From positions 326,992 to 388,070 of the forward strand of contig WELB01000088.1 of the NCBI GenBank assembly GCA_009602725.1: a stretch of 61,079 nt of DNA, read 5' to 3'. Positions within the stretch are counted from its first letter, which is position 1. Every line of letters starts with the position of its first letter. The position numbers were made by a program, and so were the translations under genes. Source of the stretch: Spirogloea muscicola. Lineage: Eukaryota > Streptophyta > Zygnematophyceae > Spirogloeales > Spirogloeaceae. Positions 7,200 through 54,860 of the stretch are shown here, in pieces. The notes under the pieces were generated by a model, which saw only the letters and a program-made list of their open reading frames with translations, searched no databases and was not told the DNA's origin.

Positions 7200-7611
7200 G
7201 ACATCTAGTTTTCAGGCATCGATCAGCGACCTTCATGTTTTGACCCGTGGTTACTGAGCGGGTCAATCTACTGTAAATTAGGTAGTTCTTTAGATGTGCT
7301 TGCCTCTGTACTTGGCCGTTCGGCCTTTGTTTGTTCAAACACACGAAATTCCTTTCGGAAGAGTGGCCACTTAGGCCTTCAATTATTTCACTACCCGAGA
7401 GTTGTCCTTCGGATGAGCTCCGTGCTTCACTGCCCTCGCCCCCTTCAGAACCTCTTCTTTCCATCCATCTGCATCTCCCTCTGCACCGTCTTGCACTTTG
7501 TAGTGTAGTCCTTTTTCGGCACTTCTTTCTTTGGCTTTGAACATTGTCCATTCTTTTTGGGTTGGCTTTGCCAGCCCCTCTTCTTAATGGGCGGGCACTT
7601 TGTTTCTTCTT
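7200..7611 (+). mobile_element. LINE family A 3' end with terminal hairpin
   Basis: The ORF tail ASISDLHVLTRGY ends at 7257. Then come the family A 3' UTR and, at 7559-7577, GGGTTGG-CTTTG-CCAGCCC, a 7-bp stem with one T.G wobble, followed by AATGGGCGGGCAC. The 5' part of the element is missing, as in typical 5'-truncated LINE copies. Confidence 0.7.
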
Positions 7612-7624
7612 TAAATTTCTCACG

Positions 7625-7905
7625 CAGTCCACACGCGAGCGGGCCGCGCTATGGCTGCTGCCTCTGGGTCTCGACGGAGTGCTTCTTTCCCAGGTGCGAG
7701 TTACTCGGATTTGCTGCTGCTCACTCGCGGGTACTGAGCTTCCATCTGCAGTTGTGTAGTGTCTAGCTTAGTGGTAGTGTGTTGTCCAGCTGTGTAATGT
7801 TCTCTTCTCGGCCCCTTCTTGGCTCTTTGGACCTTGTCCATTCTTTTCGGGCTGGCCTATCCCAGCCCCTTCCCTGTGTGGGCGAGCAATTTCTTCTTTT
7901 CACAG
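7625..7905 (+). mobile_element. LINE family B 3' end with terminal hairpin
   Basis: A decayed HLRAGRA segment leads to the ORF tail SDLLLLTRGY and stop at about 7735. The 3' UTR carries GGGCTGG-CCTATC-CCAGCCC at 7849-7868 and then GGGCGAGCAATTTCTTC. It lies in tandem behind the 7200-7611 copy. Confidence 0.65.
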
Positions 7906-8102
7906 CCCCCTCGTTTTTCAAGAAGAGTTTGCTCTCTCCAGAACTTAAGTCAAAACCTAGAAATTGGTGAAGGGCTGGACCATGAGGGCCAAGCCAAAGA
8001 ATGATAGGAGCGCACATGGGAGTGCAAGGTCATTGGCGAAGCAGGAACTCCTCGAGTTCCACTAGTATGATTGCCAACGGCTATGTGAAATCAAGTGAAG
8101 CT

Positions 8103-11029
8103 TTAGCTTTTGGCTGCCAAGGGCTTCCTTGCAAGGAAGAAATACATTGGTGTGAACAGCTCCTTCCTGCAAATTCAGACAGTACTTCGTATATAAGTAG
8201 TCCGATATTTGCAGCATAGAATGAACCTTATCCATGCGATGGAGGAGAATGGCTCTCACCTGCCTCCCTCGACTAGACCATCTGCACCTTTCTCTAGGAA
8301 CTGCGCGACTCGGTAGCTTCCTGCAGGAGCTATACTGAGCTTCTCCAGGGTCCAAACCTGCCAGTCAGCATCAAATCATGGGCTTGAATGCCCATCTACC
8401 AGGAAACTGCAATCGTCACTGAGGAAGTCATGTAGTGGGGATTACTTCTGTGCAGGCTATCATGACGTCATCAAGCTTTCATTTCCGCAAGCACCATTGC
8501 ATCCATGGGTCAGTCAGTCTTCCAAAATTCTGTCTAGCTGACAATGAGGACTGACTGGAAAAGGAGGTGGAAGGTGAGGAGTGACAAACCATCACGCGAG
8601 TGATACTGCGGCCAAGGAAAGTGAGTCGGAAGTTGGTGATGGAGAAGTGCGTTGGATCTAGGGGCTGATACCAGGGAACCTTTGCTGTCTTAACCAAATC
8701 CGCATCGTCCAGAATCTACAATATTGACATTTCGGAGTGCATATGTAAATGTCCAAGCCATCAATATACTCTTAAGTATATAGTTATATGACATCTGTAA
8801 GGAAGCAGCTGCGGACCCAGGCAACCAACTGCACCATGAGAGTGGCATGATCAGTACCTCAAATCCAGCACAAATCAGAGCATCATGGCATTGCTGGATA
8901 GTTCGAATTTCTGGCAAGCCATTCCCGAGCTCAATCTCTGCCTACAGCAATCAACAAATACGAAGGATGTTACTTGACATGTTGCCACATAGAATGCCAC
9001 AGTAAGGCCACTGTGCAATGCTGAAATGTCAATCGGAGATCCTGCTAATATGGAGGAGTTTACAGAAAAATCATTCTAACAGTCTGATGACCACCTTGAT
9101 TTGCTGATGTTCCCTATTCTTAGGATCGTATGCATCTGTGATGCACCATTCATATGCTGCAAAGCATTGCCCAGGCTTCAACACCCTGAAGATCTCTCTG
9201 TAGCAAGCCACCTTGCAAGAGAGGTGATAGAAAAATGTGATCAGGGGTGATGGCCTTCAGTAGATCCCTCTCAAAGGGGCAGTAATGAATGCCTTCCTAG
9301 GTGCAGAAGATATATGCGAGACCTGCATGCACCTGCTGAGTCAAGGCTGATGAGCTAGCAGTTGTCCAAGTCGACCAGACAATATTTCATTCTCGTCTGC
9401 TTGGCTGCAAGGGAAGGTAATATATACTCACAGCGTCCGGTGCGTGACAAGTTGCCTCAATAGCATAGGCAGCATCATAGGTTGCATCTTCAACTGGTAT
9501 GCTCATGAAGTCGGCTTTCAGAAAATTGCATGTATAGTCCAACTCGGCCTTCCTGTTGATTACCTGTTCAGAGAGTATGCTTCATGGCACTTGACTGGTG
9601 ACAATGCATTTTAGGAGCCTCACGACAACAGAGTGGTCTGGACAACAGGACCAGAAGCTTATCATCTAGTCTAAGTATATGCTGGGCGAGTCAAGTCATG
9701 TGGTTGTAGCTCAATACCTCTCCTCGAGAGATCTGGTAGGCATTGTTATTCAGGCCCGTGACTGATGCGCCACTGCAAAAGATGAGAGATGCTGCCTCTG
9801 TCAAAGATCTCTCAATCTAGAGGATCTGTCTAAACCAAATACAAGACAAATGTCTCCACTACAGCAGCAATTCAGATAAGTGCAAACATGGCCAGTCTGA
9901 GCAACAATCTGGTTCCTAGCCTTCTACAAAAGCAATTCATCTAATTTTCGTGCTTTGCACCACACCTGACTGATGCAATGCATATCTACACTTCGTGCTT
10001 TGCACCACACCTGAAGAGTGCAATTTCTCGCAAGGGTCCTCCAACTCCACATCCAACATCCAGCACCTGGCAATCCGTCTTCCACGACATTAAGGTCAAG
10101 TGCCCCAAGTGTCGCAATGCCTTGTCTCCTTTGTATAGATGTCACAGATATATGGAGGACGACACACTAAGGAGCTCAACAGTACATGTGATCCGACAAT
10201 GTCTCACCCGGTCAAGGGGAGAGAGTGATGGAATAGATGGTCTTGTATAACGACACAATATTCAACAGCGGGCTTGACAAAGATCGAATGTAATCGAGAC
10301 ACTGTGGGCTTTGATGACCTTCATGCCAGGCCGCAGTCCAAGGCGCAAGGCAAGAAAGTGCTCGTGCCTCCTGATGCTCTCTCTGAGTGTCTCATTCCTG
10401 TGCCTGCTTGCCGCAAAAACAATGCTGCAGTGCTCAGTGCGACAATGCCATACCTGTAGGAAAAGCATGAAATGTAATTACAGCAAAGCAGCTGCTTCAG
10501 CTGGAAAATGCAGACGACAAGTCCAGCACCTGTGCGCAAAGTGGAATGACTCGCCCCAGCCGTACTCGTAGAAGCTGGTGGCCAGGTCGTAGTACTTGTT
10601 CACCTGCAGCGCAGGCAGAGCCGCAGATCGTGACGCCTTTGCGGTGCAATTATGGTCCCCCCTCCCTATGTTACCAGCAGCGCTTGATCCGTTCAATGAC
10701 AGGCGCTACGGACATTACAGCCTGCGTGCGTGATGCGGAAAGCCCAGACGGCAGCACTGGCTGGCATCGGCAGACGGCGAGAGCCTCACTCACCATGTCG
10801 GTGTAGCTGCTCTTCCTCGCCGCCTCGTCGCCGCCATGATACGCGTGGTAGCTCTCGTAGCTGACAGGCGACGGGGGAGGCGTCCGTTAGTCGACACAGC
10901 CGCGCGCGCCGTTTCCCGCCGCCGCCGAGCCGGCGGTCGATCGCCTGCGGAGCCGGGCCTCACCCCCGCACGGCGGCCGCGACGCCGCCGNTCCGCCGGG
11001 CCCAGGCGCTCGCGCCAGGAGTCCGCCAT
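8103..11029 (-). CDS. SMT: Sterol C24-methyltransferase
   Basis: This enzyme transfers methyl from S-adenosylmethionine to the sterol side chain (phytosterol/ergosterol pathway, ER membrane). Exons 2-12, complement: 10794-10860, 10530-10603, 10319-10403, 10011-10066, 9718-9772, 9432-9563, 9095-9211, 8858-8935, 8596-8715, 8260-8357, 8103-8166; phases agree and introns are GT-AG. Motifs in order: [16 protein letters not shown] (sterol-binding region I), [20 protein letters not shown] motif [82 protein letters not shown] and the tail [14 protein letters not shown]. Total is about 340 residues, within the family range. Exon 1 (ATG at 11029, [12 protein letters not shown]) is tentative: an N at 10991 lies inside it and its phase does not join exon 2 as written. 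Confidence 0.95.
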
Positions 11030-12701
11030 GGGGCGGCGGCGCGCCGCAGGGCGCTGGCGGCGAGGCCTGTGACGGCGGGGAGTGCCGTCTGGACCAGAGC
11101 TCGTGCACCGTCAGACCTGCTGCCGCTCGGGATTCGAAGGTTCGCCGTCCCGCCGGCTGCACCTGGCTGGCTTTACCAGCCGCTCCATAGATGATCAGTA
11201 GCCGTTGATTCTTCGCTTCCCGCTGGGCGTTCGGTATCCGCGCCCCGCTGACGCTTAAGCAACCCCTTCTTTTCTTCCTGCTATTCTTCAGCTCAGGAGA
11301 GAAAGAAACAGCACTTCCAAGGTAAGGCGATGGCCGTGAGAGGCCAGCCCAGAGAGGACATGGACCATGGACTAGAGGAGATGCACAAGCGCTTCCTTTG
11401 AAGGCCTGGCTGAGGGATGTTGCGCGAGCTTCTTCGACTCCCAAATGCTGACTAGGGAGAAGGAGCTCTGGATGACTGGAGTTACTGAGCCACCAATACT
11501 CTTAGTGGCCACTTGCTTGGCTGTGTGGTGTAGAGAACATTCTTCACTCTCTTCGGACCTTGTGCTTCCTTCTGGGCTGGCCTTTCACATCCATGGCCTT
11601 CCACATCCATTGCCCATTTTTGCAAGACTTGAGGAGATGCTTCCAGCCCAGATGGGCATGCCGGCAGCCTATTGGTCGTTTTGCGACGTCGTGTGTCAGC
11701 TCTTTGCAAGCGAGCTCAGGCTCATCCTTTGCTGGTCGAGCCTTAGCTGGTGTCATATGGGCTTGTCCATTGCCGTCCGGTTGACGAACATCAGTTAGCG
11801 AACTCTACGTGCTGACTCGTGGTCACTGAGCGGGTCAGCTTAGCAGCAGGTGATGTACATCTGTGAATGTGCGTAAGTTGTCCTTGGCCATTCAGGCACC
11901 TTATCCGCCCCCTTGGATGAGCTAACCTTTCCCGGCTTCCTGTCATTTCAACAAACGGTTGCTTAGCACAAAATGTTGAGGGGCGGTTGCCACGGTCACT
12001 GCTTCCTAGAGCGGTTTGCGCTATCAGTGTCCTTAGGACCTTGTCTATCGCTATGGGGCTGGCCATGCACAGCTTCCGTCTCCTCACGAAGAAGCCCTCA
12101 GGAAGAAGCTTATATCTGATTTAGGAGATGATGATTGTGAGAGGCCAACCCACCCATAGAAGAAGCGACTCAGGGAAGCAACCTAGAAGCGACAACGCAC
12201 AGCACCCGTCCCGGCTTTCCGCTGGTCCCAGTTAAGCCTCCTCTCCGCTTCTTGATACAAGCTGATCTCTTTGAAGTTTGTCCCATCTTTTGGGCTTGCT
12301 TTTCACAGCCATCGTCTCTTTTCAGAATAGCTTCTTATGTGTTTGCAGCTTGCTGCAGGCAAGCACCTCCTCCACTTGCCCGTGCTGCACAGGCAGCTGA
12401 ACAGCACCTGGACGGCAAGAGTGCTGCACTCTGCCGAGGGGCCGACTTGCCATGGAATAAGATGTGCGCACACTAATGACCTAAGCCAGAGCGCCGCTCG
12501 GGAGCTGCCCGGCGACCAAATAAATGAACGAACAAAACGAATATGAGTGTCCTGAGGCCACCTTTGGCGGGAGGCGGGTGCCTGCTCGCTGCAAGGGCCG
12601 TGCGCCAGGTGAGCAAGCGCCAGTTTACACCATGCTCGCTTATCTGGAGCATCTTGGTGAAGTGGGTGGTATGTGCAATTCGACCTAGTGGTGCTGTTTT
12701 C
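11030..12701. other. Intergenic region with decayed LINE 3' pieces, no supported gene
   Basis: This separates the 5' end of SMT from the 3' end of GAUT. Scattered pieces resemble LINE 3' UTR: a GGCTGGCC/GGCCATCGCC fold at about 11325-11355 (minus orientation), a relative at about 12130-12150 (minus) and the ORF-tail relic at 11785. No open frame here has a recognisable domain. Confidence 0.5.
11785..11900 (+). mobile_element. Decayed LINE family A ORF end
   Basis: It encodes ISELYVLTRGH-stop and then GAGCGGGTCAGCTTAGC and the TGTGCGTAAG.TGTCCTTGGCC stretch, aligning by eye with the family A ends at 7210 and 40578. Confidence 0.6.
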
Positions 12702-15283: not shown

Positions 15284-16014
15284 GGCGGCCCTCCCGGAGC
15301 GCCCAGCGCGCCAGCTGGCACTCTGCGCAGGCCCTCGGTGGCGTGCGCGGCGACGGCGCGCTCATCTCGACGCGCGCGGCAGCGGAGCTCGGCTCGCACT
15401 CCTCGGCATGGCCGCAGGGCCTGCGCGATCAGGCCCCGTCGGCCGGCCCCGCCGGCCGCCTGACGCCGCGTCTGCCGAGGACCTCATCGCCGCTCCAGCG
15501 TCGCAGCTGGCGGCGGCGGCGNACGAAGCAAGCCCGGCAGCTAACTGCCAACGCCGCAGCGGTGGCGGAAACGGCGGCCGAGAGAAGCCTGAGAAGCCGC
15601 CGCAGGCCGGTGCCCACGATGCGACTTCGTGGCGCGGCGGCGGCGGCGGCGGCGGCTGGCGCGTCCGCGGCCTGCGGCGGGGCCGCCGGAGGGGGGGCGA
15701 GTCAACAATACGAGTTCTTGAGTGCGAAAACTGCCGGCGGGCAGCACGGGCCTGTGAAATCAGCAGATGTTCCGGTATGTGCCTGGCCAGGGGGCTTGCC
15801 GGCCGAGAAGACTCTGCCCATTGCTGGATGAGGTCGGCCCCGGGTGGCGGCTGCGGGGCGCCATATGCGCATGTGCGGAAATCGAGTATGTACGTGACAC
15901 TGCATGGTCAACCAAATAGCGGATTTTCGACTTGTCCTGCCCGGTGTGCTTACGATTCCCCCCACATGGGGTGTGCCAAGCCTGTGAGCGGCCAGCTCCA
16001 AACGAATGTGGCAG
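15284..16014. other. GC-rich region upstream of GAUT; no convincing gene
   Basis: Very GC-rich sequence with an N at 15522 and a GGC run near 15640. A plus-strand frame stays open for 250 codons from 15282, but it overlaps the GAUT start, lacks domains and owes its length to GC content. The stretch likely holds the GAUT promoter. Confidence 0.45.
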
Positions 16015-16260
16015 AAGAAGGGCTCGCCCATTGACAATTGGGGCTGGAAAAAGCCAGCCCTAAAAACGAATGAACAAAGGACGAGAAGGGGCCAGGGGAA
16101 GCACTAAGGAAAACAAGCACAACAAGAAACTAAGCAGCTATGAAGCACTCAGTAACCCCTGCTGAGCATCCTCAGGTCAGAGAGACTGGGTTCCTGGGAG
16201 CGGGTCCCCTGGCCAGAGCCAGAGCCAGTGGCAGAGTCTGCTGGGGAGGTCATTTGAGGA
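16015..16260 (-). mobile_element. LINE family B 3' end (minus)
   Basis: Read on the minus strand: a decayed GSGQG-like tail, GCTCAGCAGGGGTTACTGA, the family B UTR (GCTTCCCCTGGCCCC, TTTGTTCATTC), the hairpin GGGCTGG-CTTTTT-CCAGCCC (16041-16060) and GGGCGAGCCCTTCTTCT. It matches the copies at 43725-43850 and 44515-44650. Confidence 0.75.
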
Positions 16261-16914
16261 GCTTGCTTGGCAGTGGCGACCAGATTACCACAGCTCAGTA
16301 GCCGCAAGATAGCATTCTAAGGTCAGGAGAACCATGTCACGCCACAAACAGTGTCTCAACACTGATGGAGGTGGCTGTAGCTGCCAGAAGTACGAAGGAG
16401 ATCCCAGGGACGCTCCCAGGGACGCACCGGGCCTTTGTTGCACCGGTATAACACTTCAAGCTGGGGAACAAGTGGTAGGTGACTCCTTCGAATGCAGGAA
16501 AGTGGCTTTTCTCAAAGCCATCCGCTGTATATGGCCAGATCTGATGAAGAGGAATATGGTGCAGATCAGGAACAAGAAGATTGAGCCTGACGAGTTGGTG
16601 GCAGTAGCCACAGCCAGGCTCGCCTCCTGATCAACACAGCGCTCTTGCATGAGCAGCGATCTCTAGCACGGACTTGCCCAACGATCTTGCCCAAAGTACT
16701 GCGTTCTTGATCGAGAGGGTGTGGTATACAATGTCTATTGATAGGGAACGTCGACAAGGCAAATTCCATAGAATCAGGTGACATGTCAGGGTCCACGTTG
16801 TTGGCAACGTGCGCATTGTCAAAAGTGATGAAAAAGGAGAAATTTAGGTATTGGCCTGATAGGATAATTGTTACATGTAGCTTATAAGAACTCAGAGGGT
16901 CACCTTCAGGAATC
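16261..16914. other. No recognised gene
   Basis: A plus-strand frame at 16334-16630 (98 codons, Cys-rich start) and an overlapping minus-strand frame at 16566-16916 (116 codons) are both open. Neither has a recognisable domain. The minus frame could be a further exon of the fragment at 16915-17480. Confidence 0.3.
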
Positions 16915-17480: not shown

Positions 17481-17504
17481 AGTCGCAAGAAGAAGTGGCA
17501 CTCC

Positions 17505-17745
17505 CAATGGGGGCAAGGGGTGCGAAAAGCCAGCCCAAAAAGAATTGACAAAGGTTCGGAGGGGCCCACAAGCGCGTAGCAGCAACAAAGGGGCCTGAAG
17601 ATGCTATGTCAGAACAGGGGAAGGATGGATCACGAGGAGCCTCAGATCCGACAAACTAGCTGCCGGAAAACCATCCCTCTGACGAAATCCGGAGGCCGCA
17701 GCGAGAGCACGGCCAGCACGCAGATGCAGAGCGTCGCAAGCTCCT
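17505..17745 (-). mobile_element. LINE family B-like 3' end (minus), subfamily with CCCCCATTGGGAG end
   Basis: ORF tail LHLRAGRALAAASGFRQ then SLSDLRLL, followed by a UTR with GGGCTGGCTTTTCGC and the end CTTGCCCCCATTGGGAGTGC. The 3' arm of the hairpin is decayed compared with family B. Confidence 0.65.
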
Positions 17746-17944
17746 CCCCGCTCTCTCGCTGCCGCTTTGCCCTCTCCTCGACTTCCTGTGCCTCTCTCTC
17801 CCCTTAATCTCAGCGTGAGAGTGGCCCTGTCGTCAGAGGCGCTGGAAGAGAGGAAACGAAGGCGTCGCAAGAGGGAGGAGATCAAGGAGAGAAGAGAGGC
17901 ACAGGAAGATGAGGAGAGGGCAAAGCGGCGGCGAGAAGAAGTGG

Positions 17945-18935
17945 CACTCCCAATGGGGGCAAGGGCTCTGAAAAGCCGCCCGAAAGAATTGACAAAGGTT
18001 CGAAGGGGCCAAAAATGCTTAGCAGCTACGAAGGGGCAAGGAGAAGGGGCCTGAAGAAGCTATGGCAGTACGGGGGGGAGGATGGACCACTTAGTAATTA
18101 CGAGTGAGGAGCCTCAGATTCGACAGACTAGCTGCCGGAAAACTATCCCCCTGACGAAAGCCGGAGGCCACAACGAGAGCACGGCCAGCACGCAGATGCA
18201 AGGCTTGGGCCATGGACCGCTGAAGAGAGACCGACAATCTCATACAATAGACTTGGGCCCACGAGCCAGCGGCGTTGAAGTCGGCCGGCTCACCGCGCCT
18301 GCAAGACACCGCGTGCCGCACAAGCCTGGCCAGCAGGTCGAGCCACTGGGACCCGAGAGCCCTGTGCACGTCCACAGCCAAGGGGACGAACTCATCTGCA
18401 GCAGGGTGGTCGGCGTCTTTGGCCGCCTTGCTGCGAGCAGCCTTCGCCGCAGCATGGCCAGCCCGCGAGGCAGAGAGCCCCGGGTTGGAGCGGTCGACCA
18501 CATCAGTGGTGACCACATCAGCGATGATACGCGGGCCGCCGCCCGGCGTGGACGCCACCAGGTCGACACGGCGCGTGTGGAGTCCGTCGGCCCTCTGGAG
18601 GATTGGCATAACGGAAGTGTTCTCCATCGCCACCATGTCGGCCTCCTGGAAAGAGAGAAGGCGCGCGGGGCGCATGAATTGAAAGGGAGGCCAATTCAAG
18701 CCAATACATTGTTCAGGCAAGAAGTCCTGGAAGAGGCCAAACATTGCATCACGGAGGAGGTCGTGAGCAGCTGTTCGTTCGCCTCCAGTGGCGCAGCGGA
18801 GGATATGCGCCGCCAGCTCCGCTGGGTCCGTCGACCGCTCCCCACACTCACACTGTAGCGCGCCAAGCAGACAGGGCGGGGGGAGACCTAGCAGGCGATG
18901 GGAGCGGCGAGAGAGCGGGGAGGTTGCGACTACGT
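17945..18935 (-). mobile_element. LINE family B C-terminal ORF region with CCHC and endonuclease-like block
   Basis: This is the longest family B copy. The minus strand reads CECGERSTDPAELAAHILRC (C-x1-C-x12-H-x3-C), a helix with HDLLRDAMFGLFQDF, a PEQCIGLNWPPF insert, then RRVDLVASTPGGG and ADVVTTD, ADEFVPLAVDVHRALG, QVYCMRLSVSLQ, LHLRAGRALVVASG and the end SNLRLLTRNY. A zinc motif before an R-x-D...DV block resembles the C-terminal restriction-like endonuclease of some LINEs; I infer that relationship. No reverse transcriptase is present: the copy is 5' truncated. Confidence 0.7.
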
Positions 18936-18954
18936 CGAGGGCCGAGGCCTCATG

Positions 18955-19020
18955 CTCATGTTCATTCTTTTTCGGGCTGGTTGTTCCAGCCCCTATTCTC
19001 AATGGGCGAGCACTTTCTTC
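18955..19020 (+). mobile_element. LINE family B 3' tip with hairpin (plus)
   Basis: CATTCTTTTTC, then GGGCTGG-TTGTT-CCAGCCC (18974-18992) and CTATTCTCAATGGGCGAGC. Only the last ~65 nt of the element are present, in opposite orientation to the copy at 17945-18935. Confidence 0.7.
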
Positions 19021-19025
19021 CTCAT

Positions 19026-19700: not shown

Positions 19701-21069
19701 TCAGGTTGCAGGGCGAAACAGTGACTGGCGGAATGCATTGGCAGCGTGACTGTAGTGGAGAAGAAGTGGTCCCGGCAACAAGGAGAGCGAATCAGAAGCA
19801 CGAGATTCAGGCCGACGCGTGTCCACTATCAGTTGTATCATACAGCTGCCGCCTTTGATGGACTGGTCCACTGTGCTGAGCACTGCTTGCGTCTTTCGTG
19901 CGATTGATGGCCAGTACGGGTCCACTTTGCCACGGCCCGATTGGATGCCCGCCACAAGAGAAGCAAACTTCTCGAGCATCAGCGCCTCTTGAGGTACCCT
20001 CAGCTTTACCTTGTGATTGACCTCCTCCTTCGAGATCCTGCGGGCAACACCAGCTCAGCATGGTTAGTACCAACACAGAGCATGAGCACCACAATAGACG
20101 AGCACGTCCTGCCAGTGTTGCTTGAGCTGCCAGAGACAGAGCAAGTTTATGTGCAAAAGCAGCATCTCAGCAAGTCAAGTACCAAGTGGAGAAGTCTTTG
20201 AGAGCCACTGCGCTGGTAATTGTGAACGAGCATTCGTCCTCCCTGGATGGGATGATGAAGTCCTTCAGCTCCAGGACTGCTCTGGTGCCGACAATCTCGA
20301 GGTTTTGCCGAAATGGTGCATCAAAGCCGCAGTCAAAGACCGCCACGCGGCCGTCTGGCCAGGTAAGAGTGGCTCCACAGCTCATGACGACTCCAGCGGT
20401 GTTCAGCTTTGGGTCGGGATGAGCAGCCACGCGGTGGGGCATGTCGAAGTCGAAGGCCCACAGCGCGGCGCGAATGCAGAACCACCCAATGTCGCCGAGG
20501 CACCCGAGCCTGTCGAGGCCGGGCTGGCACCGGATGTTGGTGGCCAGGAACTCGTCCGCGGCCCAGAAGGAGAGCGAGGCGTTCACGTGGCTGGGCCGGC
20601 CGAAGGCGGACCGATCGTCGAGGTGTGTCGCCATGGCGGCGGCACGCGGGTTGTGCATCCACATGGTGCCGTCCATGAGCTGCACGCCGGCCTCGGCGCA
20701 CGCCGCCAGCATCTCCTCCAGCTCCGCGGCGTCCGTCGCCGGCGGCTTCTCCAGCAGGACGTGCTTGCCGGCCGCCGCGGCCTTGACCACCCACTCCAGA
20801 TGCAGGCCCGTCGGCAGCGGCACGTACACCGCGTCCACGCCCGGGTCGTCCAGCACCTCCTGGTAGCTCCCGTACGCCGTCGCCAGGCCCGCCTCGGCCG
20901 CGAACTCGCGCGCCTTGGCTAGCGACCGGCTGCCCACCGCGCGGGGCTCCACGCCGGACGCCTTGTGCATGGCGCGCACCACTTTGCGGGCAACCCTGGC
21001 GCACCCGAGGACGCCGAAGCGCACCGGCGGCGGCGACGGCGACGCCGACGGCTCCGTGGCCGCCGCCAT
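19701..21069 (-). CDS. Gfo/Idh/MocA family NAD(P)-dependent oxidoreductase
   Basis: Complement of 20183-21069 and 19701-20037 (one intron, donor GTACTT, acceptor CCCGCAG), 407 codons. The N-terminal Rossmann fold shows FGVLGCARVARKVV; DDPGVDAVYVPLPTGLH and KHVLLEKPPATDAAELEE carry the family EKP motif; GDIGWFCIRA lies in the C-terminal alpha/beta domain. The second exon (LRVPQEALMLEKFASLVAGI, PYWPSIARKTQAVL) matches plant members of the At4g09670 type, whose substrate is uncertain. The ATG at 21069 was chosen because similarity starts there, although the frame is open further upstream. The last ~38 residues after QLIVDT are not family-like and may reflect a missed 3' intron. First exon is very GC-rich. 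Confidence 0.88.
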
Positions 21070-21846
21070 GGCCGCCGCCTCTGGAGGCCAACCACAGGGA
21101 GAGGGCGAGCGAGCTGCGGGGTGGAGGGCCTCAATGGCTTGCCTGGTCCCCGACGCTAGCACCGTATCCTCTAGCACCTCCACAGCCCGCGACAGCTCGC
21201 CTGCGTCGCCGCAGCGCCTCGGCCTCGGGCGCGTCCTTGTGGCCTCCTGACAGGCAAGCTCGGCGGTGAGCCAGTCCGGCTCCGAGGGGGGCTCAAGCTG
21301 GCTGGGGGCGGCTACAGGGTACAGGTGGGAGAGAGTGGCTTTCCCAAACAAAAGTGGAGTCTGTGTATAAGAGCTATTTCTGTGTGAAGTGACGAAATAC
21401 ACGGGGCGATGGCTGCGTATGATGCCAGCCCGAAGGGTAGCTTGACAAGGTCCGAAGGGGCCGAAAAGCGTTGTCCAAAGCTGGAAGAGCTGTTTGTTTT
21501 CTTTCAGCCCCATTTCCAAGCGCACGTCTTTCGCTTGCAGCCGATTTGCGCCAACTCGAGCAGCCTCCGAGCGCCCCGGGGCCGTCCAGGTCCTCCGCAG
21601 CTTGCCGCCGCCGCGGCCGGGCCCGCGGGCCCGGCGCGGGTCACGCTCGGATGCGTGCCGCTCTGCGCTGCGGCAGCGAGGTGCGGCCTAAGCGTAGCAG
21701 CAAGCCTCGGAGACACGGCTGAGACCTGTCGTTGGTGCTAGCCCCTATGTGCTGCCATTAATCGCGTGGGAGACAGTGGCGGCTGCCGTCCTGGGACTAG
21801 TGATCAGGGGTCCACATTGGCGGATAGGCTTTGCCTGCATCATACC
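21070..21846. promoter_or_regulatory. Shared divergent upstream region, oxidoreductase and GLE1
   Basis: These 777 nt lie between two divergent starts (21069 minus, 21847 plus) and must hold both promoters and 5' UTRs. GC content is high in parts. I see no clear TATA box or other named element. Confidence 0.5.
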
Positions 21847-32113: not shown

Positions 32114-35100
32114 CTACAGCGGAGTCATGCTCAATCGAGCATTGAGTCTTCGGCCTCCCTGTGCTGTGAGCCGGTGGCGAGCCAATAAATACTCGGGCAG
32201 CAAGTCTTTCCTGGTGATGATGCCCCTAATAGGCGAGTCCTGCTGATGAACACAGAGCACAGTTGCAGCAGTGATAAGTGGATGCATAAGCCCTTGGCAA
32301 CAATACGCCTCGGTACCTCTCTTAAGAAAGCACTACTCTTGGGCACGGTCATCAAATGAAGGCAAGACCAAGGCTCTCTGCTCTATACCTTGTTAATTGC
32401 TGGAAGGACGCACAGATGGCGTAGGCCGAGTTGACGGAACAACATGAAGACCTTGTCCAGTGACATCGTCTCCAGGACCGTATGCGGAGAGGTGTTTGCG
32501 AAAGGGTGCAGGTCGATGTATTTGTGCATGTCCTCCTCCTTGACGCTTACGTCCTCTACACACAAGCCCTTGCCAGAGCCCGGCTTGGCAAAATCTGATG
32601 TGCTGTACTTGGTGAGGGGATGACCGGTCACAGAGTAGGGTCCAAGAGGGCAGTCCGAGCTTGACTGAAAGTTTTGCGATTGCAGAAGCACAAGTAAGTG
32701 GGAACGAAGGACGATTCCATAGAGGCTGGGTTGACCGTCAACCCACTTTATTATGGGGAAAGCGCTGTGCCTGTTGCTCCTTAACACCTGCAGCAGCACC
32801 TCCACACGTTCGACCCCTTGGAAACAGATGGGATCCCGCTCAACTGCATCTGCGGCCGTCAGCTCCTTCATAAACTGTTCCGGATGAGGCTCCAAGTACG
32901 GAATCTTCTTGAGGCTCACATGCAAATCGTAGATACCGTCATTCAATGAATCCCCCACCATCTTGGACACCAGTAGCACCAACATTATGAGGGGCAGCAT
33001 CTCAAGGTTGCCTGTGAGCTCCAGGAGGATGACGGAAAGAGAGACTGTCATGCGCATGGAGCCTCCGAGGAACGATGCAGCTCCCAAGAGGGCATATGTG
33101 CCCTCGTCAATTCTGCGTCCTCCAAAGAACCCCACCATCGCCATGCCAGCAATCCGGCCATAAGTGGCACCACACATGATAGCAGGCACGAACAAGCCGG
33201 ATGGGACAGCAATGCCGTATGTGACGACAGCCAGCAAGTAGAAGGTGACCATGAAGATGCTAAGGTGGAAGTAGTTGAATTCGGCGAATGTCCCTGTGCT
33301 GAACAAGTTTCGGATTGCGTCGTCGTTGGTATTGAAGAGAAGGGTGGCCAGCTCGTTGTAGTGGCCTGGAGGGCAGTAGAAATTCTTGAAGTTTCCGACC
33401 CGCCCGTATGTTGGACACTTGTCTGTGATGTGAAGGTCTGGGTCCGGACACGGTGTGCAGTGTGCACAGAGCGGAATGACATATTGCACAATAGATGTCA
33501 CGAGGGCGATGCAACAAGCCTCAGCGATTTTCAGCCTTGGGCCATACCTGCATAAGATGATAGACTTGAGAAGGAGCTGTGGAACAACACACAAAGAGAA
33601 AACACAGCATAGAGCAGGTTTGTGAATAGCAGCTTATTGCAACATAAATACCAGAGGCACAGTAGTATTCAGCTTTTTGCACTTACTTGGCAAGCCTGTC
33701 ACGCCGTATGGTGCATATGAGAATGTTGACTTGATTAAAAAGGCCGCCGAGGAGGCCTCCTGTTATCCCAAGGATCACCACAGGCAAAAGCTCCATCAAC
33801 CCGAAGTTGCTCTTGACACTGCTTGAGTCAAATATGATGAAGCCCCCATTGCTGAATAGGCCACATGCTCCATCACGACACATTGCCATGGCTGCTCGGA
33901 CCACTACAGCAACAATGGCATTTGTGAAAAAGACTCGCCATAGAAGTGGCGCACGCCACCTGCATGAAACGTATGTCATTCCGAGACTTTAGCTTAGCGA
34001 GTTGTTTCATTGTTTCTTCTTGTACCAATCATACTACAATTACAAGTTAGTTCACAAATCGTCAATCAAAGAAGAACAGAAGATGTCTGGATTGTGCCAC
34101 AACTAGCAAGCAAAGAGTCCGAGGCTAGCAGTGATCTCACGAAGCTGCAGCCTCACTGTCACTTTCTGATGACCAGCTGTATTTAACATCATAACGAGGC
34201 AACGGAGCGACGAGATAAAATACACTAACGAGGGTAAAAGACTTACCAAGAGGTCGCTTCTTCAAGGGCAAATAGAACACCACCCACTGGTGCTCGAAAG
34301 GCAGCCGCAACTCCCGCTGCGGCTCCACAGGTGACCAAATCTCGTCTGTCCCTGTCGTTCTTAAAGAGGCCCAGCCACTTGCAGGTCAATCCATACTTCT
34401 TGGAACCCCCTTGACCCAGTATGGATGCAATGCATGCACCTGTGTGGACTAATGGCCCCTCCTTGCCTACAGCTAGACCACCGGCAACAGCGCATATGCT
34501 GCCCAGCACCTGCAGTTTACAAAGCTTGAAAGCATGTGAGGCAACTACAGTTGATGTTGTTCATGTAGTCGCACTCATCAAGTGTGCAACCATTAACAGG
34601 ACCGTGCACGCAATGTTAATCAGGGTACATACAGGGGCACAAGCGTGTGCTTGCCAATAACATTCTTACATTGCAGAGACTCAACAATCAACTGAGTAAA
34701 CCATGCCGTAGCAGAACCCACTTTCGCTGAAACATTCTCACGAGCACTTGGCATCCAGTTTAAAACCTCCAACAACCTCCTAATATAAGCTCAAGAATAC
34801 CAAAATCATGGCAGCTTGGACAAGGAAGATGTGGGATGCCTGCCTTGACAATAAGCGTTCGTGGAGAGAAGATCTCAGGGGTGTCCACTCCATTCAAATA
34901 GCCCTTGACCTTTGGTATGCCAGAGCCAGCAGCTGCGGGTGCTACTTTTGTGCAGAGAATGGAGGCAACGAAAACGAGTGCTACGTTGAACATGGTGTAC
35001 ACGAGGCAAGCAGAAAAGTGCCTGCATATGTGCATTCCGATTGCTGTCTCAGATCTTGCTACAAGACAAGAGTCTGCTGGCAAGAATCCAAAAGATAAGT

Positions 35101-36808: not shown

Positions 36809-36844
36809 AGGTTTGCAGCCCTTCCATGGCTTTTTTGTACTGTT

Positions 36845-36905
36845 GTTCATTCTTTTTTCTTGGGCTGGCTGTTCCAGCCCATATCCTCAATGGGCGAGAT
36901 CCTCT
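36845..36905 (+). mobile_element. LINE 3' tip with hairpin
   Basis: CATTCTTTTTTCTT, GGGCTGG-CTGTT-CCAGCCC (36862-36880), ATATCCTCAATGGGCGAG. Only the tip of the element is present. Confidence 0.7.
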
Positions 36906-36984
36906 CTTCTTCCATGGCCTCCCCATCTCTTAATACACACGCATGTCCTTCCAAGTAGAAAAGACTCCTCCAAAAGAGAATTTT

Positions 36985-37560
36985 GTGTATTAGAAACTAG
37001 TTTAGGCCAAATGGCCAAGTACAAGGCAAGCACATCTAAGGATCTACATAACCTACAGCATATTGACCCGCTCAATAACCACGACTCAAAACATAAAGGT
37101 CACTAATCGATGCATGAATACTAGATGCCAGAAACGGAGCCCTTCTGCCACCAACCAGAGCTCGCCCAGCTTTCTGGTGCAAGGCACTAGCCTGAGCACG
37201 CTGCAAACAGGCAGAAACTCGTCGTCGCAAGAGCGACAGATATGCAGCTGGCAAGCCCATCTCAGCCGGAAACACATCTGCACGTCGAGTGTAGCCTAGA
37301 TTGGCAATGGTTTGAAGGAGAGTGTGGAAACGAGGACCCAGACAGCCAAAGATGTCGATTGCCGCTGGCAGGAGCTGATCGCATTGGGGGTAATCGAAGT
37401 AGTGCCGCAGTTTATTTTTTTCTGCACCGTCCACTGCATGCCCAGCGATGTGTGTCGATGCTGGGCCCTTATATGCCTCCGTAACAACGTCGACCAGGGC
37501 CCGTGGTCCTCCACCAGGGTGCACGCCCACAATGTCAAGTGTGCGGCGATATAAAAAGGG
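36985..37560 (-). mobile_element. LINE family A remnant 1 of a tandem array
   Basis: The minus strand encodes GGGPRALVDVVTEAYKGPAS, HIAGHAVDGAEKNKLRHYFD, QLLPAAIDIFGCLGPRFH, ADVFPAEMGLPAAYLSLLRR and ends ASISDLYVLSRGY. It is nearly identical to 38675-39670 except for small indels (one codon missing in VDVVVTE). Confidence 0.75.
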
Positions 37561-37579
37561 CGATGATTAGCTGTGATTG

Positions 37580-37690
37580 AAGAAAGGGCTCGCCCATTGA
37601 GGATAGGGGCTGGAAAAACCAGCCCAAAAATAGAATGAACAAAGTACGAGAAGGGGGCCAGGGGAAGCGCTAATTGCTGTGATTGCCCTC
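37580..37690 (-). mobile_element. LINE family B 3' tip (minus) inserted beside the family A array
   Basis: Minus strand: AGCGCTTCCCCTGGCCCCC, TTTGTTCATTC, GGGCTGG-TTTTT-CCAGCCC (37607-37625), CTATCCTCAATGGGCGAGCC. Confidence 0.7.
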
Positions 37691-38674
37691 CCAAGCTCTG
37701 GCCATCCATGAGCGTCCCCTTTCCGCCAGCAATACACAGTTACCTTAGTCCCCCTAGCATACAGCTTCATCTCTGCCCAAATTCTGCACTGCCTTTGCCT
37801 GATCAGTGCATTGGCTTGGTTTGGCCCCTTGCATTCCTGTGCGCTGCGCCCCTTCTCTTCTTCACCCTGGAGGGCCGTCGAGAGTGGCCGCCTTGCACAG
37901 CCAGCGCGGGCCTTCGTTTCACACTGCTCTCACCCTTGATTTGTTCTTCTTACAAAGAATTTGCTCGCTTGCTTTGGCCTCCCTCTCAGTCGATGTGCAC
38001 CGTGCGCCTTCCCTTTCCACATAATGTGCACCGCGTGCTCCCCCCACCTTGGATTATGCTCACTCGTGGTTTTTGTGTTCCCATTCTCTGCTTGACGAAA
38101 CAGAGTTCTCTGATCGTCAGCCTGGTGAGGTGCTTGATCAGTAGGCATCTGTCAAGCCATCTGTCCTTTGGCATCGACATGCCCTTATGTATATGTCATT
38201 ACATCTTCCGTTTGACCAATAGATTGATTGATGACTGGAAGCTGGACTTGTTTCACAAGCTGTCAGCCAATGCAGCCTGAGAAGAACCTCAACGTGTAGT
38301 CCACTGTGTTGCTAACAGCAACATTATGCTCTAAGTGGCTGCAACAGGCAGCGGGACATTCAGGCATGCCCTCATTTCAAGTCTCCTGGCTCTAGAAGAG
38401 AAGCTTACTCCTCAAGCTGCCCTACTATATAAACGGCTTCAATACATCTTTTGAGGTAGTGAGTCCTATATGCGGATCAGCAATCTGGGCTGTTACTGAG
38501 CAGGAAGCACCTTTGCTTCTTCTTCAAAAGAGTCCTGCTATTTTTTTTGTATGAACTGTGCATAAGCTAGCCCCTGCTGACGTTCTTGCGACGACCAGTT
38601 TCGGCCTGTTTGCAGCGTGCTCAGGCTAATGCTTTGCACCAGACAGCTGGGCGAGCTCTAGTTGGTGGCAGAAG
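37691..38674. other. Repeat-derived spacer, no gene
   Basis: A plus frame at 37708-38280 (190 codons) starts near ATCAGTGCATTGGCTTGG, a relative of the PEQCIGLNW module found in family B, and is otherwise featureless. GGCCTCCCTCTCAGTCGATG at about 37977 is a second relative of that module. From 38281 to 38674 nothing is recognised. Confidence 0.4.
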
Positions 38675-39670
38675 AAAATTTCGTGTATAAGAAACAAATG
38701 TAGGCCAAATGGCCAAGTACAAAGGCAAGTACATCTAACGATCTACATAACCTACAGCATATTGACCCGCTCAATAACCACGGGTCAAAACATAAAGGTC
38801 ACTAATCGATGCATGAATACTAGATGCCAGAAACGGAGCCCTTCTGCCACCAACCAGAGCTCGCCCAGCTTTCTGGTGCAAGGCACTAGCCTGAGCACGC
38901 TGCAAACAGGCCGAAACTCGTCGTCGCAAGAGCGACAGATATGCAGCTGGCAAGCCCATCTCAGCCGGAAACACATCTACACGTCGAGTGTAGCCTAGAT
39001 TGGCAATGTCTTGAAGCAGAGTGTGGCAACGAGGACCCAGACAGCCATAGATGTCGATTGCGGCTGGCAGGAGCTGATCGCATTGGGGTAATCGAAGTAG
39101 TGCCGCAATTTTCTTTGTTCTGCACCGCCCACTGCATGCCCAGCGATGTGTGTCAATGCTGGGCCCTTGTATGCCTCCGTAACAACCACGTCGACCAGGG
39201 CCTGTGGTCCTCCACCAGGTTGCACGCCCACAATGTCAAGTGTGCGGCGATGATGACGTCCCTGGGCGTCCGTAGTGATAGGCATGATATGGTTAACTTC
39301 CACGACCGCTCGGTAGCCGGCGTCGCGCATCAAACCCGCCAGGGCATCGCGAAGGAGGTTGTGAATGCCCACCACTTCTGGTCTAGTGGGGCATCTCAGC
39401 ATGTGAGTGGCGAGCACAGCACCCTCTGCACGGAAGCCGCACTCGCACTGGCGCACCCTAAACAGGCAGTTAGGTGGGAGGCCGAGGAAGAGTTGAAGCG
39501 ATGTCCGAAAGGCCTCGGAGCTGATGCTGAAGGCGTTGGCGACGGGGGGAGAGGTGATCCAGTCAGTGGCACCAGGTGTGGCCAGAAAAGCAAGTCTTAG
39601 CAAGCTCCTTGGATTGTTCTGTCTCTCTGGCAGCCTCCTCAACCTTCTGCAGCGTTCGTCTTCCACTGCC
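38675..39670 (-). mobile_element. LINE family A remnant 2, best copy of the C-terminal region
   Basis: Minus strand: FRTSLQLFLGLPPNC, CECGFRAEGAVLATHMLRC (C-x1-C-x11-H-x3-C), TRPEVVGIHNLLRDALAGLM, VVEVNHIMPITTDAQGRHHR, RTLDIVGVQPGGGPQALVDV, VVTEAYKGPALTHIAGHAVG, EQRKLRHYFDY; then, after a frame break at PQCDQ (39087), FPAEMGLPAAYLSLLRRR and the tail SISDLYVLTRGY at 38771. The zinc motif followed by R-x-x-D...VDVVVTE...K..HY is the pattern I read as restriction-like-endonuclease-like. Confidence 0.75.
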
Positions 39671-39814
39671 GTAACCAGGATTGTGCCCCTTTATCAGAAG
39701 GGGCTCGGGCTCCACAGCCGTCGTCGGGGAGGAGCGTGAAGAAGCTGAAAAAGCTGAAAGAGGCGTTAAAGGAGTGGGAAGGTCGGCCACTGAGGCAATG
39801 GCAGCCCATCTGCA
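39671..39814. other. Short spacer between array units
   Basis: 144 nt, partly AAGAAGCTGAAA-rich; no match to the flanking elements noticed. Confidence 0.3.
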
Positions 39815-40545
39815 CGACGTGGTCGACACATCTGCACGACGTTTATAGCCTAAATTGGCAGAATTCTAGAGGAGTGTGTGGAAACGAGGACCCAGACAGC
39901 CAAAGATGTCGACTGCCATTGGCAGGAGCTGATCGCATTGGGGGTAATCGGAGTAGTGCTGCAGCTTTCTTTGTTCTGCACTGCCCACTGCGTGGCCAGC
40001 GATGTGTGTCGATGCTGGAGATATATACGCCTCCGTAACAACGACATCGACCAAGGCCCGTGGTCCTCCACCAGGTTGCACGCCCACAATGTCAAGTGTG
40101 CGGCGATGATGACGTCCCTGGGCGTCCGTGGTGATAGGCATGATATTGTTGACTTCCATGACCGCACGGTAGCCGGCGTCGCGCATCAAGCCCGCCAGCG
40201 CATCGCGAAGGAGGTTGTGAATGCCCACCACTTCTGTTCTAGTGGGGCATCTCAGCATGTGAGTGGCGAGCACAGCACCCTCTGCACGGAAGCCGCACTC
40301 GCACTGGCGCACCCCAATTAGGCAGTTAGGTGGGAGGCCGAGGAAGAGTTGAAGCGATGTCCGAAAGGCCTCGGTGTCCGAAAGGCCTCGGAGCTGATGC
40401 TGAAGGCGTTGGCGACGGGGGAGAGGTGATCCAGTCAGTGGCACCAGGTGTGGCCAGAGAAGTAAGTCTTGCCAAGCTCCTTGGATTGTTCTGAATCTTT
40501 GGCAGCCTCCTCAACCTTCTGCGGCGTTCGTCTTCCCACTGCCGA
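39815..40545 (-). mobile_element. LINE family A remnant 3
   Basis: Same protein order as the 38675-39670 copy (CECGFRAEGAVLATHMLRC, GIHNLLRDALAGLMRDAGYR, TLDIVGVQPGGGPRALVDVV, QLLPMAVDIFGCLGPRFHTL). Its 3' half is replaced after PRFHTLL. A short tandem duplication of TCCGAAAGGCCTCGG is seen at 40358-40390. Confidence 0.7.
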
Positions 40546-40569
40546 ACAGAAGGGCTTTGTATCTGCTAT

Positions 40570-43339: not shown

Positions 43340-43855
43340 AGAAGAAGAAGCACCATTTTGAAAGAGAGAACGCGGATGCTGAAAAAGAGCTGAAGTACGC
43401 GGATCATCCGCGGGAAGACGAGTTCTTCCCGTTGGCCATCGACACACATGGGGCGCTGGGCGCTCGGTGGCTCGAGCTGCTCACCCAGCTCGCCCGCCAC
43501 ACCATCGCCCGGCGCTTCCATGGGGAGCCGGTTGACTTCCCTGCAGCCGGGTCGCTGGCGCAAGTGTATCGAATGCGCCTGGCCGTCTCGCTGCAGAGGT
43601 CCATGGCCCGGGCGCTGCACCTTCGTGCCGGCAGAGCCCTCGCTGCTGCCTCTGGCTCTGGCCAGGGGACCCACTTCCAGGAGCCCAGCATCTCTGATCT
43701 GCGGCTGCTTAGCAGGGGTTACTGAGTGTCTCGTAGCAGCTTTGTTTCTGTTACTTAGCGCTTCCCCTGGCCCCCTTCTCGTACTCTGTTCATTCTTTTT
43801 CGGGCTGGTTGTTCCAGCCCCTATTCTCAATGGGCGAGCACTTTCTTCTGAAAAA
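43340..43855 (+). mobile_element. LINE family B C-terminal end with 3' hairpin
   Basis: EDEFFPLAIDTHGALGARWL, QVYRMRLAVSLQRSMARALH, LRAGRALAAASGSGQGTHFQ, SISDLRLLSRGY-stop (43723), UTR, hairpin GGGCTGG-TTGTT-CCAGCCC (43802-43820), GGGCGAGCACTTTCTTCT. Family B as in 17945-18935 but on the other strand. The reading frame is intact over the visible part. Confidence 0.8.
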
Positions 43856-43879
43856 TGAAAGAGCGGCTGTACAAACCAG

Positions 43880-43990
43880 CCAGGTGCATCCAAGAGAGAG
43901 AAAAGGCGCGTGATGTGCATGAAGTGAAACGGTGGCCAAGTCAAGCCAAAACATTGTTCAGGCAGAAAAATTAGTGCAAGAAATGGGGCT
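43880..43990 (-). mobile_element. PEQC module relic (minus)
   Basis: The minus strand carries CCTGAACAATGTTTTGGCTTG then CCACCGTTTCACTTCATGC, a relative of the insert in the family B endonuclease-like region at about 18700. Confidence 0.5.
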
Positions 43991-44044
43991 ACATGAAACG
44001 AAGGCCTATGCGAAGGCGACTAAGGTAACAGTGTGATGTTAGTA

Positions 44045-44290
44045 CGTTGATACCCACGGGTGACCACATCCAAATCCGACAGGCTATCTTGGGGAGCTGG
44101 AGCGCCGCCATCCGAAGGGGGCGAGGGCTGCGAAAAGCCAGCCACAGAAAGTATGAGACGGTTAGAAGGAGCCAGAAAGCGTAGAGACGCACCGAGGGTG
44201 CCTGCCAGAGAGAAGGCGCGCGGGGCGCATGAAATGAATTGGCCTCCATATGGAGGCCAATTCAAGCCGATACATTGTTCAGGCAGAGTC
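44045..44290 (-). mobile_element. LINE-related remnant with PEQC module and SDLDVVTRGY tail (minus)
   Basis: The minus strand reads PEQCIGLNWPPYGGQF, a UTR-like stretch with GGCTGGCTTTTCGCAGCC and the ORF tail SLSDLDVVTRGY. It contains the 30-nt palindrome at 44235-44264. Confidence 0.6.
44235..44264. repeat. Perfect 30-nt palindrome
   Basis: The two 15-nt arms (TGAATTGGCCTCCAT and its exact complement) meet at a central ATAT. The equivalent place at about 18676-18706 has a single copy of the arm. Confidence 0.9.
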
Positions 44291-44359
44291 CAGGGCAAAC
44301 TAGACAAGGCTACATAATACGGAACCGAAACCAAGGTGCCAGAGGGGGAGATGCCGTCT

Positions 44360-44655
44360 TAGAGGTCTATGGCCCGGGCGCTGCCTCTTCGTGCCGGCAG
44401 AGCCCTCGCTGCTGCCTCTGGCTCTGGCCAGGGGACCCACTTCCAGGAGCCTAGCATCTCCGACCTGCGGCTGCTTAGCAGGAAATATCGTGTATTTCCT
44501 GCTAGCAGGGGTTACTGAGTGACTCGTAGCTGCTTTGTTTCTTTGTGTGCTTGCTTTTCTTAGCGCTTCCCCTGGCCCCCTTCGTGCTCTGTTCATTCTT
44601 TTTTGGGCTGGCTTTTCCAGCCCCTATTCTCAATGGGCGAGCCCTTTCTCTTTGG
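44360..44655 (+). mobile_element. LINE family B 3' end with fold-back insertion and hairpin
   Basis: RSMARALPLRAGRALAAASG leads into SISDLRLLSR, then an extra 26 nt (see the stem-loop at 44476-44504) before RGY-stop. The UTR ends with the hairpin GGGCTGG-CTTTT-CCAGCCC (44605-44623) and GGGCGAGCCC. Confidence 0.75.
44476..44504. repeat. 12-bp stem, 5-nt loop inverted repeat
   Basis: TAGCAGGAAATA, loop TCGTG, TATTTCCTGCTA. The paralogue at about 43713-43722 has no such insert. Confidence 0.9.
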
Positions 44656-44763
44656 AACGTGGACAAGGCCAGCACAGCCACGCTCGGAGGTTCACATGCA
44701 ATGCGGTGAAGCGGTGGTTATTGTCGACGTGGGTGGCTCTGTCGTATTCTAGGGCGCACAGGT

Positions 44764-44801
<38 letters not shown>

Positions 44802-45133: not shown

Positions 45134-53736
<8,603 letters not shown>

Positions 53737-53830
53737 TGTGCAACAGTTTGCACTAGCGGCCACTTGTCAGCAATTTGCCACTGCTCTCCTCTTGCTTCCT
53801 GGCTACATGTCTATGAGATCAGCAAAGGCT

Positions 53831-53835
53831 TGTAA
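53831..53835 (+). terminator. Possible TGTAA polyadenylation signal for XRN2
   Basis: TGTAA occurs 95 nt after the stop, a plausible distance for a green alga. Confidence 0.35.
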
Positions 53836-54254
53836 GAGGTCTGTGATTGTGCATTGCTGTCAACCTGCAACTGTGAATGCATGGCACATCGACCTGAGTA
53901 TGAGCCAATCTCCATTGCAGGCTGATGATGTCAGTGTTATGCTTAGCCGGGGTTGGCAGCACTCAAGCCTAAAATGAGGATGTCGAGCACGTAGCACTTC
54001 AGTGCCTTCTGCCGTTGAAGCTGCCGTCGAACCAGTATGCCTTTGGTGTCAATTTGACAAGGATGGTGAAATGGCGCACCTGTGGGCTATGTAAGGGGAC
54101 TCATACTTGGTCTAGCGTGAAGGGAGTCACATGCACGGTACTTCACCTCAGCTTCGGTCAGGGAGATACCTACCTCCATAGCCACAATGGCATCGGTGCA
54201 CCAAAGTATCCTCCTGCCGTGGCTTGGCACTACACCACTAAATTCCGTGGCGGT
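53836..54254. other. No supported gene
   Basis: Downstream of XRN2; a 99-codon plus frame that begins at 54015 runs into the LINE tail at 54255. Nothing else seen. Confidence 0.35.
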
Positions 54255-54860
54255 GCTCCGGCTCCTCCATTAGCCCTGTCGGATTTGCATGCCCTCACCC
54301 AAAGGTACCAATGATTCTTTTCAGCCGCCTTTTGCATTGTGCATGTGCACAGCACTCGCCCACATTTGAAGAGCTGCTTCTACCTTTTACTTCATGCGCT
54401 CCGCGCGCCTGTGGTGGAAGAGTGAGTGGAAGAAACAGCTATTTCAATGCAAGGCTATAACTTTGCGCCTTCTGGCCCTCCCAGCCCTTGTTCACTCCTT
54501 TGGGCTCAGCCACTGCCTGTCGCTGAACTTGCTGGTTCACACCAACGGCTGAAAGTTGGGACTGCTTTCAATCGTTCACAAATGGTCACATATCTTCTTG
54601 TCCAAGGTCATCCTTCGTTCATCCTTTTTCTGGGCTGGTCAATCACAGCCATCGCCCTGTACTGGAAGTGTCTGTCTTCATTCTTTCTGGCCCCTTCGAA
54701 GTTTGTTTCCTTCTTTCCATGGGCTGGCCAATCACGGCCGTCGCCCTCTATTGATAGTCTCCCTTTCAAATTTCTCCCCTGACCCCCTTCTCGTCCTTTG
54801 TTGATTCTTTTTTGGGCTGGCTTTTTCCAGCCCCTATTCTCAATGGACGAGCACATTCTT
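54255..54860 (+). mobile_element. Cluster of LINE 3' ends (plus)
   Basis: ORF tail LALSDLHALTQRY then stop near 54314; two hairpin relatives of the second type (GGGCTGGTCAATCACAGCC at about 54632 and GGCTGGCCAATCACGGCC at about 54722); then a standard family B end, GGGCTGG-CTTTTT-CCAGCCC at 54814-54833. At least two superposed insertions are needed. Confidence 0.65.

Follow-up and report, generated by a model that had tools for sequence, protein, structure and literature searches.

A conserved hairpin tail at the 3' end of an abundant LINE lineage in the streptophyte alga Spirogloea muscicola

Hairpin tails at the locus

The window analysed here is a 61,079-nucleotide (nt) stretch of the genome of the alga Spirogloea muscicola (assembly GCA_009602725.1, contig WELB01000088.1, positions 326,992 to 388,070). 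It carries repeated copies of a short hairpin with the stem GGGCTGG/CCAGCCC. This hairpin belongs to the last ~70 nt at the 3' end of long interspersed nuclear elements (LINEs), an abundant lineage in this streptophyte alga that is probably of the restriction-like endonuclease (RLE) type. The window features that belong to the lineage, tails and open reading frames (ORFs), are given below by window position and strand, each with its evidence.

7537..7599, plus: C-type tail with the GGGTTGG wobble (7559 copy); pattern match, fold, covariance model
7827..7890, plus: I-type tail with a 6-nt loop (7849 copy), downstream stretch loosely alike; fold, covariance model
16019..16084, minus: A/B-like tail, preceded by a short ORF remnant at 16152-16232 (minus); covariance model, ORF-end survey
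17495..17559, minus: second G-type tail, weak model match; fold, covariance model
17941..18003, minus: G-type tail after the G-family ORF remnant, outer helix unsupported; fold, shuffles, covariance model
18094..18855, minus: G-family LINE ORF, C-terminal remnant, 57% identity to family A; protein comparison
18951..19014, plus: tail-only insertion (18974 copy), target duplication CCTCATGC; boundary mapping, covariance model
36835..36902, plus: tail-only insertion (36862 copy), target duplication CTTCCATGGC; boundary mapping, covariance model
37075-37554 and 39836-40372, minus: two further K-family remnants; protein comparison
37585..37649, minus: short tail insertion (37607 copy, the same as L078), target duplication CAATCACAGC; boundary mapping, covariance model
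38774..39609, minus: K-family LINE ORF remnant (..SDLYVLTRGY), related protein with another 3' tail; protein comparison, ORF-end survey
43381..43725, plus: family A LINE ORF C-terminus (..SDLRLLSRGY) and stop, directly 5' of the 43802 tail; ORF, protein search
43779..43842, plus: two-helix tail of family A, with the inner stem at 43802-43820; pattern match, predicted fold, covariance model
44582..44645, plus: A-like tail with loop CTTTT (44605 copy); pattern match, fold, covariance model
54791..54855, plus: A/B-like tail with a 6-nt loop (54814 copy); covariance model

The inner stem is present in nine window copies, of which five are exact, one has a single mismatch and three have 6-nt loops. 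A covariance model was trained on 16 tails, including five window copies; in a window scan it recovered all nine places listed in the initial annotation, two weaker G-type tails and a marginal partial match at 11164. Searching for GGGCTGG-N5-CCAGCCC with up to three mismatches gave 16 window sites against a shuffled mean of 8.06, and 1 of 100 shuffles was as high. The stretch 3' of the stem was matched 8 times in the window where 0.16 matches were expected. The conserved stretch said to follow each hairpin holds for the window overall, and only a loose likeness was seen at 7849.

The genome searched comprises 153.1 Mb in 471 contigs. It encodes light-harvesting complex (LHC) proteins (68 matches); behind a single tandem LHC chain, the best matches of its LHCII were a run of LHCII chains of the land-plant type, and its Lhca4 was also closest to the land-plant form, in keeping with a streptophyte host. 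The stem pattern with at most one mismatch occurs at 10,883 places, a mean of ~71 stems per Mb, and the reversed control at 9. Because the pattern is palindromic, the forward and reverse counts are identical places. A pattern fixing only the upstream outer arm TTCATTCT and the downstream stretch CTCAATGGGCGAGC occurs at 1,611 + 1,538 places, with 0 and 0 for the control. The inner hairpin was found in 100 of the 100 listed places of this pattern, with both arms exact in 90 by an eye count.

The LINE protein and its link to the tail

Several window tails come after a frame whose C-terminus reads SDLRLLSRGY, or after a relative. A protein search with a 236-amino-acid (aa) window ORF as query, in which 150 of 18,627 first-look candidates were scored, gave 155 matches. 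Among the matches listed, 19 lie in open frames longer than 1,100 aa; a run of N accounts for the length of at least one such frame (C24). In four of five fetched loci (L069-L072) the frame measures 1,290-1,338 aa from stop to stop, and in L069 the hairpin lies 76 nt past the stop codon. The lineage is recently active; two copies, L069 and L072, have 4,110 nt in common at 99.9% identity.

A 1,328-aa frame matched the reverse transcriptase (RT) family PF00078 (E 8.2e-16) and contains one weak C2H2 region (Pfam, E about 0.1) and a second C2H2-like motif seen by eye. Against Pfam at E 1 nothing beyond the RT and the weak C2H2 region was found, neither an apurinic/apyrimidinic (AP) endonuclease nor any other endonuclease family. 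Among solved proteins, the matches at E 1 were three R2 proteins (E 7.4e-7 to 1.1e-6) and one zinc-finger chain (E 0.81). By eye, the A, G and K families have in common a C-terminal C-x-C-x11/12-H-x3-C followed by R-x-D-(L/I)-V..D-V-V-x-T, which by analogy with R2 is read as a CCHC motif and a putative PD-(D/E)xK-like (RLE) motif. A single ORF with C2H2-like motifs, an R2-related RT and CCHC/RLE-like motifs therefore points to an RLE-type LINE with an R2-like layout. A plant L1-clade LINE was ruled out, as there is no AP endonuclease match in Pfam and the end is CTTTCTT rather than poly(A). An R2 element proper was also ruled out; copies lie on very many contigs with unlike flanks, not at the R2 site of the 28S ribosomal DNA (rDNA).

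The initial annotation took the hairpin for the 3' end of LINEs, tied to their ORF ends. The survey of ORF ends comprised 16 whose aligned parts are 57-91% identical to family A; three gave no verdict because of an N run or because the locus ended there. A hairpin of this kind on the same strand within 165 nt was found at 11 of the 13 judgeable ends, which bears the claim out. Of the two remaining ends, that in L044 runs into another LINE fragment downstream and the tail of L073 is interrupted. Two rows were left out of the survey, one for L004 (34% over 100 aa, A-type tail; probably a poor alignment) and one for L071 at 55%, which looks spurious. Families with 57-100% identity in their C-terminal segments all retain the hairpin. 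In the window several tails follow a LINE ORF end; the copies at 18974, 36862 and 37607 proved to be tail-only insertions of ~60-95 nt.

A sister LINE family, K, ending SDLYVLTRGY, was found at window positions 37075-40372 (minus strand) and in L008, L049, L056, L071 and L079-L081. Its ORF ends, with 34-47% identity to family A, share a different 3' untranslated region (UTR) in nine of nine cases, and this UTR showed no significant fold (z -1.2, -0.9 and -0.3). This suggests that tails follow protein families, two lineages being thin evidence.

Insertion junctions and copy length

Boundary mapping covered 84 A/B-like 3' ends in 355 kb of sequence, and the 5' boundary was mapped in 75. The copies end ...GAGC(A/C)CTTTCTT without poly(A), in agreement with the initial annotation. 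The 5' ends are ragged, the 3' end is fixed and the copies are strongly 5' truncated. At a typical junction ...GAGCACTTTCTT is followed by the target duplication. Such duplications, whose mapping had been proposed together with that of the 3' junctions, are frequent and 7-14 bp long; direct repeats of at least 8 bp were found at the mapped ends of 26 of 75 copies, compared with a mean of 2.94 and a maximum of 7 in 50 shuffles. The base after the exact 3' end, scored in 50 copies, is C in 45, and CT follows in 36; 18 of 34 repeats of at least 7 bp begin with C. This C(T) is a target preference, perhaps because the RNA end pairs with the primer. In the sequence TTTCTTCT the last C(T) is mostly target sequence, and the element itself ends at CTTTCTT.

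For copy length, ORF-selected copies were removed, leaving 51 of the 75, 43 of them A/B-like by sequence. The length up to GAGC is below 100 nt in 27 of these 43 (median 65), although divergence can make a copy seem too short and two long copies are the references themselves. Four of the 27 short copies are distrusted (two C-type tails, two doubtful), and without them the count is 23 of 39. Clear duplications accompany several of the short copies, among them L006 (~47 nt, TTCGCCCTGC), one C-type copy from L001 (~48 nt, CAAAGAAAAG) and the window copies at 18974, 36862 and 37607. Some pieces end inside the hairpin.

Tail pieces of 20-45 nt also lie nested in, or directly after, other tails (L008 minus ~1256, L053 minus ~1052, L060 ~2290, L064 plus 2469-2520), and these are possibly products of aborted reverse transcription or template jumping. 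Another tail lies within 130 nt downstream on the same strand for 7 of 97 tails, and on the opposite strand for 14 of 97 (7 pairs, each counted twice), a clustering that far exceeds the mean genomic density. Same-strand clusters were seen in L006, L044, L053, L060, L061 and L064 and opposite-strand clusters in L045, L047, L051, L054, L057, L061 and L069. Tandem self-insertion was rejected, the clustering being without clear orientation.

Predicted fold of the tail

The family A tail is predicted to fold into an outer helix, GUUCAUU/AAUGGGC, an internal loop and an inner 7-bp GGGCUGG/CCAGCCC stem closed by a 5-nt loop. Fold z-scores are -4.4 for the 69-nt A tail, -3.9 for the 44605 copy, -2.6 for the 7559 copy and -1.6 for a 131-nt stretch around one B tail; further tails gave -4.8 (F), -3.1 (7849, I-type), -2.0 (C) and -1.8 (D). 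Out of 2,000 shuffles, no more than 48 equalled the longest helix between the two sides for the A, B, D, F and I tails and two of three C tails; in the others the number was 129 (E), 590 (one C copy) and 223-743 (G). In this model part of the downstream stretch would pair with the upstream GTTCATT to make an outer helix, in most tail families though not in G.

Between families the inner stem is kept while the loops differ. Pairing was intact in 84% and 92% of cells (23 and 16 tails), compared with at most 54% and 57% when the partners were slid, the structure having been derived from the same sequences. The changes that members of a family share (CTGGCCC in D and GGGTTGG in C copies; T/C in the outer arm) are few and mostly keep pairing through G-U, with the exception of the innermost pair of the outer helix. 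An apparent compensation between A and G outer arms was rejected; it appears only when the 3' arm is shifted by hand by one base, and it was not counted because the G tails fold no better than shuffles.

A possible mechanism and its alternatives

The overall explanation that we favour, with a probability of about 0.7, is that the tail is a two-helix 3' terminus of an RLE-type LINE, bound by the element protein to start target-primed reverse transcription (TPRT). The protein would bind the tail of its own RNA, and the bottom strand would be nicked at a site that reads C(T) on the top strand. The RNA end CUUUCUU would then be placed at the nicked primer, where TPRT would begin. Synthesis would often halt before 100 nt had been copied, which would account for the tail-only insertions. 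That the RT recognises the tail is inferred from the anatomy of the elements together with the published biochemistry of R2 and zebrafish L2.

Several results weigh against this explanation. Stem covariation, chosen in advance in the initial annotation as the test that could refute it, was not found; 0 of 14 pairs showed two-sided changes on either 23 or 16 tails, with no excess over shuffles. RT recognition of the tail thus remains an argument by analogy. The E-type tail scarcely folds above shuffles (z -0.9), and five G-type tails fold no better than shuffles (z +0.3 to -0.7), two of them keeping the inner hairpin in the best fold. Repeats of at least 8 bp are lacking in 49 of 75 copies, and a few of the 26 lie at odd offsets. 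The endonuclease, finally, is a putative one, read from motifs. From the first reading as a whole, the LINE 3' terminus without poly(A) and linked to ORFs has stood, covariation has not, and the downstream stretch is reassigned by the fold model to the outer helix.

The main rival, which we regard as unlikely, is that the hairpin forms or protects the RNA 3' end, through processing or as a histone-type stem-loop with a non-polyadenylated end CUUUCUU, and is not read by the RT. It accords with the fixed 3' end ~12 nt past the outer helix, without poly(A), and with a stem conserved in sequence as well as in structure. However, this genome also has a sister family whose 3' end lacks the hairpin, and the R2 and zebrafish L2 precedents favour direct binding by the RT.

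A bolder form of the favoured explanation, to which we give little credence, is that the two-helix tail could be a self-sufficient retro-tag. A released tail-only RNA of ~45-75 nt would be copied in, and the short insertions would behave like an extremely small short interspersed nuclear element (SINE) rather than as failed full-length copies.

That the tail is conserved merely by recent kinship of the families, with a functionless hairpin, is very improbable. Such kinship is consistent with the missing two-sided covariation and the poor folds of the G-type tails. Between families with no more than 57-75% C-terminal identity, however, the inner stem hardly differs, while the rest of the 3' UTRs is by eye largely unlike; in addition, the within-family changes keep pairs through G-U, the innermost outer-helix pair excepted, though the events are few. 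Finally, a DNA transposon or miniature inverted-repeat transposable element (MITE), suggested by a short palindrome in high copy number with target duplications, can be dismissed, since the palindrome lies at one end only, after the RT ORF where present, and ragged 5' ends with a fixed 3' end contradict it.

Neighbouring genes and other repeats

Three pieces of host genes lie in the window.

4887-5855, minus: CDC20/Fizzy-like WD40 gene piece
20167-21687, minus: GFO/IDH/MocA oxidoreductase gene piece
32383-33633, minus: voltage-gated chloride channel gene piece with CBS

Long terminal repeat (LTR) elements were rejected as a source of the hairpin. The PF00078 loci among L009-L038 with a readable RT are Ty3-like, and the strict tail pattern found no tail beside them; a looser pattern found one, in L034. 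L010, L015, L017, L018 and other PF00078 loci are Ty3-like LTR retrotransposons; their long open frames (listed at 1,172-1,237 aa) are identical, so that these elements too are recently active. Another tail type, GGGCTGGCC(T/C)(T/C)TCCCAGC(C/T)A(C)CAGT.. followed by another palindrome, CCAG..CTGG, was noticed in L040 (minus, ~2260), L079 (~2325) and L004 (~1802). An Rfam search of window positions 43500-44800 gave a single match, below the gathering score and not at a tail, and the phage records searched gave no match.

Comparison with known LINEs

Several LINE clades, in green plants as well, have tails with a stem-loop, so that the kind is already known. In R2Bm a 43-nt two-stem tag is reported to suffice for TPRT (PMC10499050). 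The algal LINE resembles R2 (R2Bm, R2Tg) in its RT sequence, in its single ORF with C2H2-like motifs before the RT and CCHC/RLE-like motifs after it, and in the compact two-stem 3' RNA element proposed here. Unlike R2, it is dispersed and not confined to 28S rDNA, makes short duplications and has another tail sequence; its 3' UTR is ~130 nt long, that of R2Bm 248 nt (PMC10499050). HERO-group LINEs are described as being of the RLE type, many of them without target specificity (PMC4640811). By that description, the algal LINE would be like them in its putative type and in its dispersed insertion.

In the stringent-type LINEs UnaL2, ZfL2-1 and ZfL2-2 of the L2 clade, a stem-loop near the 3' end is needed for retrotransposition, the protein reading the stem generally and the loop specifically, and the zebrafish L2 protein binds the stem-loop of its own tail (PMC4176376). 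The algal LINE likewise has a 3' stem-loop, with the stem kept and the loops differing, but the stringent elements belong to another clade and end in short repeats, whereas the algal element has a fixed CTTTCTT end and, in addition, a predicted outer helix. Of the features of a stringent-type tail, a stem-loop near the 3' end that is kept between families is present, in G-type tails only partly, and compensatory stem changes are absent from all 14 pairs. In green-plant L1-clade LINEs (Ohshima) a conserved CGAG follows the stem of a 3' hairpin (PMC3747384). CGAG follows the algal stem too, perhaps by chance; the plant elements mostly end in poly(A) and their stems vary with compensatory changes, in contrast to the fixed algal stem sequence and R2-like RT.

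A literature search, with subscription papers and Repbase outside its reach, turned up neither an RLE-type LINE from a streptophyte alga nor a tail of this kind. What looks new is the element together with its two-part tail, whereas the principle was known before. The interest of the tail lies in its suitability for testing minimal RT-recognition tags rather than in a new principle. With a short conserved tail, an R2-related RT and a sister family with another tail, the template features read by an R2-like RT become testable by tail swaps. R2 proteins are under development for RNA-templated gene insertion (PMC12222951, PMC11331408), and a dispersed R2 relative with a compact tag would be of practical interest for that purpose.

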